Of a stretch of DNA of 64,000 bases, positions 16,048 to 18,161 are shown in pieces. The DNA lies in assembly GCF_000005825.2 (NCBI RefSeq), contig NC_013791.2, forward strand, positions 2,790,001 through 2,854,000, written 5' to 3'. The DNA comes from Alkalihalophilus pseudofirmus OF4. Lineage in GTDB: Bacteria; Bacillota; Bacilli; Bacillales; Bacillaceae_D. A model generated the notes under the pieces. The model did no database searches. It saw nothing but the letters and a program-made list of their open reading frames with translations, and had not been told where the DNA came from. Position 1 is the stretch's first letter. Every line of letters begins with the position of its first letter. Position numbers and translations under genes: made by a program.

Positions 16048-16164
16048 ATGTGGAAAAAAATATTAAAAACACTCAACCAAAAACAGCAGCCCAAAAAATC
16101 CTCATCATGCTGCAAAATTGAAATTAAAGAAATAAATCATTCTGCACAAGCGGAAGAAAAATGA
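16048..16164 (+). CDS. 38-residue basic peptide with vicinal Cys pair, downstream of ArsP
   Basis: The frame MWKKILKTLNQKQQ... runs to ...SAQAEEK. It contains KKSSSCCKIEIKEIN, a vicinal Cys pair in the middle. The start has a near-perfect Shine-Dalgarno (AGGAGGTGATC) seven bases before the ATG and lies 11 bases after the permease stop. These facts argue for a real co-expressed small protein. A vicinal Cys pair can bind As(III), so it may hand the ligand to the permease. This is an inference; no family name is claimed. Its TGA stop overlaps the terminal inverted repeat of the palindromic element that follows. Confidence 0.7.
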   Translation: MWKKILKTLNQKQQPKKSSSCCKIEIKEINHSAQAEEK

Positions 16165-16326
16165 GGCTGGGACAAAAAGTTATTTAACTAAATGAAAATC
16201 CGAATAATGATAGATGTGGACATAAGCCGTTCCTGAAATAGACTTCGCTTTCCGCAGGAAGCCGGTGAGCCTCCTCGTGCTATGGCACTGCGGGGTCTCA
16301 CCTTTGGCTTTTACATCCTGCAGGAG
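16163..16326 (+). repeat. Left part of a MITE-like palindromic repeat split by the insertion sequence
   Basis: Begins with GAGGCTGGGACA, whose exact inverse TGTCCCAGCCTC ends the right part at 18150-18161. It contains the arm CCTGAAATAGACTTCGCTTTCCGCAGG and the inner hairpin GTGAGCCTCCTCGTGC...GTCTCAC. The left arm pairs with CTACGTCTATTTCA at 18089 in the right part. Removing the insertion gives one continuous palindromic element of about 240 bp with 12-bp terminal inverted repeats. It belongs to the same family as the copies at 7.5-8.2 kb. Confidence 0.85.
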
Positions 16327-16364
16327 CATTCCTGTCAGATGAGTTTTAACCTATTGAAAAGAAA

Positions 16365-16421
16365 AGGATCCTCCGATATGATGCTTGTGTCTCAAAACAA
16401 ACATTAAAAAAGGAGGATCCT
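16365..16421 (+). promoter_or_regulatory. Inverted repeat sequestering the transposase ribosome binding site
   Basis: AGGATCCTCC (16365-16374) is perfectly complementary to GGAGGATCCT (16412-16421), which contains the Shine-Dalgarno GGAGG. A transcript entering from outside the element would fold this 10-bp stem and hide the ribosome site. Such anti-read-through structures are known from other insertion sequences (for example IS10 and IS200). Confidence 0.65.
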
Positions 16422-16424
16422 CAC

Positions 16425-17705
16425 ATGAAGGATAATCGAACGAAACGAATTAATCAAGTTCAAGAAAGCACTCTTGTCATTGGAATTGATATCGCAAAGG
16501 AGAACCACTATGCCTGCGCGATTGATAGCCGCGGTCGAGAATTAGCTAAAGTGTGGAGGATTCATCAATCTAGAGAAGGCTTTATCCAGTTTGAAGAGTA
16601 CATTCACATGTTAATGAACCAACATCAAAAGACAGATGTTCTGATTGGTTTTGAGGCAACCGGTCATTACTGGATGAACCTAGCTCATTTCTTAAAGGCA
16701 ATTGACTTTCCATTCGTCTTAGTGAACCCACTACACGTGAAAAATTCGAAGGAAATGGATGATAACCTTCAAACAAAGAATGATGCCAAAGATGCCCGAG
16801 TCATTGCGAAATTACTTCCAAACGGCTACTTTAGTGTACCAAGAGACATGACCCCGGTAGATCATTCTTTGCGTCAAGGATCAGCCATTCGAGAACGTCT
16901 ACGAAAAGACATTGGGGCAGTAAAAAATAGAATACAGCGTTGGATTGCCCTTTATTTTCCGGAATTTCGACAAGCCTTTAAGAATTTTGGAAAACAAGAA
17001 CTGACGGTTCTAAAGCTTACTCCCCTTCCAGAAGATATCAAAGAAGCCTCTGCAGAGGAGTTAGTCCTCAAACAGAAAGAGGCTGGAGCTAAGTACGCGG
17101 GTAAACCTAAAATGGCGAAGCTCATTAATTTGGCCCGTCATTCGATTGGACTAACAGAAGGAGCGCAAATGGCGCGGTTAGAAATCCAAAGCTTGGTTCA
17201 TCAATTAGAGCTATTAGATGCTCAACTCGAAGAAGTCACGACTCAAATGGTTGAACAGGCAAGATACTTACCGGAGTTTGAATACCTTGTTTCTGTTAAA
17301 GGAATTAGTGAAAACACGGTCAGTGAGCTGTTAGCTGAGACGGGTTCTCTTCAGAACTACGAACACCCACGCCAAATTATTAAACTAGCGGGGTTAACAT
17401 TAAGAGAGAATAGCTCAGGGAACCATCAAGGAACCAAGAGAATTTCTAAGCGTGGCAGAAGAAGATTAAGGGCACTTCTTTACAAAGCCATCCTTCCGCT
17501 GATTCATAATAATGAGGCGTTCAACAGCGTGTATACCTATTATCACTCGCGCCAGTATAACCCATTGAAGAAGAAAGAAGCGATGGTCGTATTATGCAGA
17601 AAGCTCATTCAAGTGTTTCATGGACTGAGTAGGAATCAAGCAAGCTTCAATCCTGAAAGGATGTTAGCGGACCTCTCCTATATCACAGAGAGTAGAGCAG
17701 CGTAA
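16425..17705 (+). CDS. IS110-family transposase/recombinase
   Basis: RNA-guided recombinase of 426 residues. The N-terminal RuvC-like DEDD domain shows VIGIDIAKENHYACAID (first Asp near 21), IGFEATGHYW (Glu near 76) and TKNDAKDARVIAKLL (Asp pair near 120). The C-terminal Transposase_20 domain shows LVSVKGISENTVSELLAETG and AGLTLRENSSGNHQGTKRISKRGRRRLR, which includes the conserved Ser. A strong GGAGG precedes the ATG but is masked by an inverted repeat. The long 3' non-coding region places it in the IS1111 group rather than the IS110 group, where the long end is upstream. No frameshift or stop was seen. Confidence 0.95.
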   Translation: MKDNRTKRINQVQESTLVIGIDIAKENHYACAIDSRGRELAKVWRIHQSREGFIQFEEYIHMLMNQHQKTDVLIGFEATGHYWMNLAHFLKAIDFPFVLVNPLHVKNSKEMDDNLQTKNDAKDARVIAKLLPNGYFSVPRDMTPVDHSLRQGSAIRERLRKDIGAVKNRIQRWIALYFPEFRQAFKNFGKQELTVLKLTPLPEDIKEASAEELVLKQKEAGAKYAGKPKMAKLINLARHSIGLTEGAQMARLEIQSLVHQLELLDAQLEEVTTQMVEQARYLPEFEYLVSVKGISENTVSELLAETGSLQNYEHPRQIIKLAGLTLRENSSGNHQGTKRISKRGRRRLRALLYKAILPLIHNNEAFNSVYTYYHSRQYNPLKKKEAMVVLCRKLIQVFHGLSRNQASFNPERMLADLSYITESRAA

Positions 17706-17734
17706 GTGTTAAGCTTTCTTCGTTTTAACAACAT

Positions 17735-17890
17735 ATGCACAGAGACTCGGCAAGCGTAGACTTAAGACCGCCTAGGATAGGTGAGTCCATGCAGGAGTAG
17801 AAGCCGAGCTCTGCGTCAGGAAAGACCCAACGAAGGAATGTAGGCACTTGATGCCAGGAGATATGGGAGGGTACGTCCCCTGAAGCAGCA
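17735..17890 (+). ncRNA. Candidate bridge (seek) RNA of the IS1111-type element
   Basis: Downstream of the transposase lie two hairpins with large internal loops. Hairpin 1: CAGAG-A-CTCGGC (17740-17751) pairs with GCCGAGCTCTG (17803-17813). Its loop holds CGTAGACT (17755-17762), the reverse complement of target AGTCTACG, and TGCAGGAGT (17790-17798), identical to the target top strand. Together they cover the 14-nt target TGCAGGAGTCTACG rebuilt by joining the flanks. Hairpin 2: TCAGG (17816-17820) pairs with CCTGA (17879-17883). Its loop holds AGGAATG (17834-17840), the reverse complement of the element's left end (16327-16333), and GGGAG (17865-17869), identical to its right end plus core. 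The order, target guides then donor guides, is that of bridge RNAs. Confidence 0.8.
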
Positions 17891-18085
17891 GAGATCACTC
17901 GTGCAAATACCATTTGAATTGGTAGTAGTTTACAAACTGCCAACGCCACGCGTAAGCATAACAGCCATATCCTTCTTAATCTTCCGTAATGTGTATATGG
18001 ATATCGGAGTATAGTCTTAAAAAATTTTTTTTAGTAGTGTTAAAAACCAAAGAAACCCCCGTCAGATTAACTTTTCCTGAGGGAG

Positions 18086-18161
18086 TCTACGTCTATTTCA
18101 TCCACTCATTTATCGCTTTATTCGGGATTTCGGTTACTTACTTTTATTATGTCCCAGCCTC
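18086..18161 (+). repeat. Right part of the split palindromic repeat
   Basis: Starts directly after the AG core with TCTACGTCTATTTCATCC, which continues the arm interrupted at 16326. It ends with TGTCCCAGCCTC, the 12-bp inverse of the left terminus at 16163-16174. It ends three bases before the stop codon of the minus-strand MBL-fold gene and may serve as part of its terminator. Confidence 0.85.

Follow-up and report, generated by a model that had tools for sequence, protein, structure and literature searches.

A putative guide RNA legible against its palindromic-repeat target in an IS110-family element of Alkalihalophilus pseudofirmus OF4, and relatives with other guides at other sites

Introduction

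Bridge RNA or seekRNA recombinases are being studied for programmable DNA insertion. RNA-guided targeting and its natural re-direction are already in print (in the available part of PMC11187229), and so are palindromic repeats as targets, for ISPa11, ISPpu9, ISPpu10, and IS621 (in the available part of PMC1525189). The element described here lies at positions 16327 to 18085 of the window, by which we mean the whole stretch analysed, 64,000 nucleotides of the Alkalihalophilus pseudofirmus OF4 genome. As far as the accessible text on ISPa11 goes (PMC11187229, PMC1525189), this IS1111 element of the REP sequences of Pseudomonas aeruginosa has the same kind of palindromic-repeat target, a downstream RNA, and the top-strand guide first; the window's element differs from it in having no subterminal inverted repeats, a longer transposase, a different palindromic repeat, and a host in a different phylum. 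IS621 of the IS110 group (PMC11208160, in its available part; structure 8wt6) shares the two-loop bridge RNA, the CT core, a DEDD plus serine-motif recombinase, and a REP target, but in the window's element the RNA lies downstream of the gene, not upstream, and, relative to the gene, the guides come in the opposite order. Since both loops are reversed in this way, the arrangement is the same one read on the other strand. The natural re-direction of ISEc11/ISXne4, to judge from the part of PMC11187229 that describes it, likewise involves related elements whose guides and targets have both changed, whereas the present comparison takes in more relatives, nearly identical ends, and several target classes that include ribosome-binding sites.

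Results and discussion

The element and its family placement

Features of the element and its target are collected in Table 1. By domain search, both IS110-family domains (DEDD at the N-terminus, Transposase_20 at the C-terminus) are present in the single encoded protein, and the catalytic D, E, and D-D positions together with the SG positions line up in alignments with those of ISCro4 and IS621; the N-terminal stretch alone scores weakly against these two proteins (E 0.07 and 0.39). Non-coding DNA makes up 98 nt 5' of the gene and 380 nt 3' of the stop codon.

Table 1. Coordinates of the element, its putative guide RNA, and its target in the window
Feature	Position	Strand	Basis or remark
IS110-family element, 1,759 bp	16327..18085	+	Ends from four genomic copies and empty orthologous sites
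DEDD transposase/recombinase, 426 aa	16425..17705	+	PF01548 E 7.2e-34, PF02371 E 1.3e-20; aligns to ISCro4, IS621
Left donor end CATTCCT	16327..16333	+	Complement of donor-loop AGGAATG
Right donor end GGGAG	18081..18085	+	Same word in donor loop
Promoter-like TTGAAA-17-TATGAT within left end	16354..16382	+	Consensus match only
Inverted repeat AGGATCCTCC (16365-16374) / GGAGGATCCT (16412-16421), over transposase ribosome-binding site	16365..16421	+	
Bridge/seekRNA core, target loop then donor loop	17740..17895	+	Covariance model and 37-sequence fold
Target loop, closed by CTCGGC (17746-17751) / GCCGAG (17803-17808)	17746..17808	+	
Guide 1, holding CGTAGACT at 17755-17762	17753..17762	+	Top-strand complement, right target half
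Guide 2, TGCAGGAGT	17790..17798	+	Identical to top strand of left target half
Donor arm, closed by CTCTGC (17809-17814) / GCAGAG (17888-17893)	17809..17893	+	Covarying helix
Donor guide AGGAATG	17834..17840	+	Complement of left end
Donor guide GGGAG	17865..17869	+	Same as right end
Left half of target site, TGCAGGAG	16319..16326	+	Flank, copies, empty orthologues
Right half of target site, TCTACGTC	18086..18093	+	Flank, copies, empty orthologues
Left part of target palindromic repeat	16235..16326	.	Genome matches; outer limit read by eye
Right part of split palindromic repeat	18086..18099	.	Outer limit read by eye

The leader has a structure of its own (16354-16421), in which the inverted repeat has one arm in the spacer of the promoter-like sequence and its second arm across the ribosome-binding site of the transposase. 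That ribosome-binding site would be hidden in transcripts entering from outside and free in the element's own. Leader inverted repeats of 10-12 bp occur at the equivalent place in three relatives (L066, L068, and L073), and others have shorter ones or none. An isolated piece of about 111 bp elsewhere in the genome (L005, genome position 3764002-3764113) is 80% identical to the leader region.

An earlier note on this DNA, made from the sequence alone, had called the element IS110/IS1111-type. The two halves of that label fare differently: the protein is IS110-like and subterminal inverted repeats are absent, while the RNA's position and the guide order are as reported for IS1111. In a comparison with one reference per group, the transposase aligned over most of its length (24% identity, E 5e-19) with that of IS116 of Streptomyces (L251), a member of the IS110 group that was compared by its transposase; the alignment with IS4321 came in pieces only (best E 2e-8). 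IS4321 is an IS1111 member according to a source available in part. Because subterminal repeats are missing and the 426-aa transposase aligns end to end with IS116 and piecewise with IS4321, the element is a broad IS110-family bridge/seekRNA element and not a strict IS1111 member. Among the broad family traits found are complementarity of the target-loop RNA and, on the donor side, a complementarity with an imperfect core.

We consider it unlikely that the element is instead a true IS1111-group member that has lost its subterminal repeats. Such a reading would account for the long non-coding region 3' of the gene that contains the RNA and for the top-strand complement (17755) preceding the bottom-strand match (17790), since the available part of PMC11187229 gives the top-strand guide first in IS1111. 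The same text reports IS1111 transposases of 330-350 aa, well short of this one, and it places the non-coding region of IS110 elements mainly upstream, though downstream in some members; an upstream RNA, the narrow IS110 trait, is absent here. Against an IS1111 origin stand also the alignments just given, with only local similarity to IS4321, and the search for a subterminal inverted repeat of 11-13 bp, which found none in the element (best 9/12, at offsets 23 and 3 from the ends).

The putative guide RNA

The flanks are as the earlier note described them, with TGCAGGAG ending at 16326 and TCTACG starting at 18086, and the four words that it had named in the 3' non-coding region stand at their positions (Table 1). 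Guide 2 has the sequence that the left target half shows on the top strand and therefore would pair with the bottom strand. The minus strand of the target reads CGTAGA-CT-CCTGCA, and the published CT core is thus kept. The 383 nt that begin with the stop codon were put through 20,000 dinucleotide shuffles: the 8-nt right word turned up in 77 of these, the left word in 149, and both together in none.

Two hairpins had also been proposed for this region, and the strength of the case depends on the method. Folding of the single sequence is weak evidence, slightly better than shuffles and uninformative (z = -1.7, with 8 of 200 shuffles as stable). Comparison is strong evidence: an alignment of 37 distinct sequences from relatives retains the two-loop fold, with a consensus of 25 pairs, 15 of which have two-sided changes. 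In this consensus 97.6% of cells are paired; column shuffles give 86.0%, and sliding the partners by 1-3 columns lowers the figure to 32-44%. One of the five fold measures, the number of further pair types, does not rise above the shuffled alignments, 468 of 500 of which score as high. The helix that closes the donor arm covaries in distant relatives. For the stem that closes the target loop, sequences pair better with their own partner than with swapped ones (5.16 vs 4.66 of 6 pairs, 0 of 2,000), and in several distant sequences only 2-4 of its pairs are found by rule.

A covariance model built from these sequences, that of the window among them, scores the window RNA at 102.9 bits (E 1.7e-22). 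At E 0.1 or better it has four hits in the genome, namely the four copies of the element, and at E 1e-6 or better 56 of the 299 genomes searched from the class have a hit, the window's genome among them. Rfam gave no family match to the RNA, the one chance hit being under its threshold. From its conservation and its near-identical copies we infer that the RNA is intact, as had been proposed.

The donor side has to be read differently. The donor-loop words ACGAAGGAA and ATGGGAGGG are invariant across the 37 sequences, and the donor pairing therefore has no support from covariation. The element ends CATTCCTGT and GAGGGAG are nearly constant among relatives, a constancy that is partly built in because the ends were sought by these words. 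A constant donor loop and constant ends would fit donor pairing. In the RNA, AGGAATG is followed by TA and not by CT, so the donor core would pair imperfectly on that side.

Guides and flanks across relatives

If the words in the target loop act as guides, relatives with other words may be expected at other sites. A first set held 79 distinct insertions with recognisable ends and 34 guide pairs, after loci were dropped that repeated the same place, had no CATTCCTGT or GAGGGAG end, or lay too near a contig end; guides were corrected by hand for L045, L053, and L077, as were the right guides of L071, L080, and L121. Left guides match their own flanks at 6.83 of 8 positions, against 4.76 with the flanks of other groups, and right guides pair at 5.25 against 3.22, neither being equalled in 20,000 permutations. 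With the four core bases excluded, left guides still match at 2.86 of 4 against 1.39. Own flanks score above the row mean for 34 of 34 guide pairs on the left and 30 of 34 on the right. The right-side registers were anchored by hand with the flanks already known, and with the register left floating the difference is weaker (6.41 vs 5.83; 0 of 20,000 permutations).

The insertions fall into target classes, and the agreement can be followed within some of these. Class A, to which the window's element belongs, comprises palindromic repeats, with ends CAGGAG|TC in most copies (the bar marks the junction), and has 19 insertions with 8 guide pairs; taken alone, it yields as-good permutations on the left in 137 and on the right in 7 of 20,000. 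In class B, with targets described below, the right side is weaker (4.39 vs 3.82, 84 of 20,000; 13 of 19 above the row mean). Of the smaller classes, C consists of GGGCAG|TTTAGTT-like palindromes, and within C and D (3 and 4 guide pairs) the tests were not significant.

A second set, scored on the left side only, was a hand-chosen part of the matches listed for the covariance model, from genomes outside the model building. Its 79 regions (L158-L236) yielded 55 insertions, 8 regions having no transposase match and 16 no recognised left end or RNA motif. Under a rule that requires C or T after the core, own flanks match at 6.61 against 4.00 and the outer bases at 2.63 against 1.10 (0 of 20,000 permutations). 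An earlier, automatic core rule, which took the wrong core in many, gave 4.65 against 3.43 (0 of 20,000), and in 11 of 18 the own flanks exceeded the row mean.

Single cases make the correspondence visible. A relative from Evansella (74% aa identity) has the guides GGCGACT and TGCTGGAGT and the flanks CGCTGGAG|TCGCCG. In L096 AA replaces the usual GG beside the core in guide and flank alike, and all 8 + 8 bases fit.

These comparisons bear on a second alternative, in which the protein itself, or the hairpin shape of the palindrome, recognises the repeat and the words at the 3' end are left over from target DNA or coincidental. Hairpin-recognising transposases exist, and the target in the window is a palindrome whose inner arms (16264-16274 and 16292-16302) can form a stem. 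We nevertheless regard this alternative as very improbable: relatives with changed guides sit at matching changed sites, many of which are not palindromic repeats, the words occupy fixed places of a conserved fold, and no shuffle contained both of them.

Some regions of the second set depart from the common layout. Guide RNA regions without a nearby transposase match occur in L213 (RNA near 2290-2440) and L236 (RNA near 2200-2340), where the right end is kept and a left end was not found; both look like decayed remnants. In L209 CATTCCTG comes immediately after the right end GAGGGAG, an arrangement that looks like a head-to-tail junction with a second element or its left end.

Copies, target site, and empty orthologous loci

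Searching the genome gave four copies of the element: that of the window, an identical one, a third that differs by a single change, and a fourth of 1,736 bp whose gene is broken. All four copies found sit at CAGGAG|TCTACG, in a single orientation, within copies of one palindromic repeat, so the remaining three, examined for unrelated sites, lie at the site of the first, in keeping with the earlier note. The 14-nt site that it had given is the one occupied by the window copy and is not invariant; what the four copies have in common is the 12-mer. The left flank reads TGCAGGAG in two copies, CACAGGAG in one, and CGCAGGAG in one, and 2 of the 4 depart from the guide at the outermost left bases. 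The broken copy (L004) has lost 23 bp in an AT-rich stretch before the right end, and its RNA core and site core are unchanged despite this loss.

The repeat is plentiful, as had been claimed: a search with 16180-16326 as query gave 44 genome matches, a rough figure (40 of 81 first-look candidates scored) that includes the window's own flank and the flanks of the other copies. A search of the genome gave no second exact TGCAGGAGTCTACG. Among the matches listed there are 9 unoccupied CAGGAGTCTACG sites, 4 preceded by CG and 5 by CA. A search for the target site with up to 2 mismatches found 44 sites, among them the right junctions of all four copies, against 13 with a reversed control.

In sister genomes, 5 of 6 orthologous loci, which cover three of the four copies, are uninterrupted at the junction, where no base has been added or removed; the sixth (L239) aligned on one side only. 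One of the five empty loci has GGGG for GGAG beside the junction, a one-base difference in the core region. For the window copy, the joined flanks match a same-species genome at 99.6% over 500 bases. Copies and empty loci together indicate insertion at a fixed site, in one orientation, and without target duplication. That the copies share flanks by duplication of a larger unit of repeat plus element, rather than by separate insertions, would suit their confinement to one repeat family, but the flanking repeats differ in sequence and the empty loci refute it for three of the four copies, leaving it scarcely credible.

Separate, RNA-directed insertion is thus the reading we follow. Because the copies share one site, orthologous loci are empty, the fold is conserved, and guides fit flanks, this is almost certainly a working bridge/seekRNA element, an insertion sequence of the IS110 family in which RNA read from the element's 3' end directs the 426-aa DEDD recombinase. 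By analogy with published work on IS621, ISEc11, and ISPa11, the RNA would be produced, be bound by the recombinase, and act on a circle intermediate. The target-loop guides would pair with both halves of the site, the two pairings overlapping at the AG/CT core, and the joined element ends GGGAG|CATTCCT would pair with the donor loop. The recombinase would then exchange strands at the core, inserting the circle in one orientation and without target duplication.

On the evidence of the sequences, the element appears to present a known mechanism in directly readable form in nature, with relatives whose different guides probably account for their matching different sites. Guides are legible against the chosen sites in some dozens of genomes, and in the window's own case the empty orthologues serve as proof. 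The insertions amount to a natural table of tolerated mismatches and of re-targeting with nearly constant donor ends.

The word GAGGCTGGGACA flanks the target palindrome in inverted orientation (16163-16174 and 18150-18161), a hint of a larger repeat unit. A pattern search for such a composite repeat gave no intact second example.

Target classes and insertion at Shine-Dalgarno sequences

Class B, with 47 insertions by rule, has guides such as TAAAGGAG with ATTTTCAC, spelling TAAAGGAG|GTGAAAAT, and the commonest guide pair of the first set (9 insertions) spells the same. This spelling resembles the complement of the 3' end of 16S rRNA. An ORF of at least 50 codons starts 4-16 nt after the junction in 29 of 44 class B insertions; the 44 leave out L080, L121, and L096, which have other targets, and with these the count is 29 of 47. 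As controls, such starts follow flank positions in 12.6% of cases, positions after GGAG in 28 of 148, and junctions on the mirror strand in 5 of 44; classes A, C, and D have none among 19, 7, and 6 insertions, respectively. Of the 44 class B insertions, 19 have a first ATG with 30 or more open codons no farther than 25 nt away, as does 1 of 32 in classes A, C, and D. The offset of this ATG in class B is mostly 9 or 10 (11 of 19), a usual Shine-Dalgarno spacing. By the Shine-Dalgarno count, the second set gives 6 of 13 without three misplaced right ends (L194, L196, and L197), or 8 of 16 with them, and 2 of 14 for its other insertions.

In a transposase tree, class A forms one side of a branch (support 91 by a quick method, 7 rows), and class C appears in two separate parts, a separation forced by starred branches. 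With ten target labels, assigned by hand, and the broken proteins L044 and L046 left out, the tree needs 10 changes against a shuffled mean of 21.4, and retargeting has therefore taken place several times. We think it probable that the lineage has repeatedly switched between two plentiful and mild sorts of target, intergenic palindromic repeats and the Shine-Dalgarno sequences of host genes, with its ends almost unchanged, and that guide order follows the position of the RNA and not the transposase group. Where an element has inserted at a ribosome-binding site, its right end places GAGGGAG|G before the gene; this sequence could probably still act as a ribosome-binding site and would make the Shine-Dalgarno sequence a universal and partly self-repairing address.

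Guides that seem to spell a Shine-Dalgarno sequence, in relatives inserted there, are the surprise of this comparison. No report of Shine-Dalgarno targeting by a bridge RNA or seekRNA element was found in the literature searched, which took in few subscription journals or preprints, and the available part of a Geobacillus paper has no mention of it. Such targeting in relatives would explain how an element of this kind spreads with little harm. In several loci (L119, L123, L125, L133, L139-L141, and L065) the insertion lies at a Shine-Dalgarno-like sequence directly 5' of an ATG, and the guides spell the motif.
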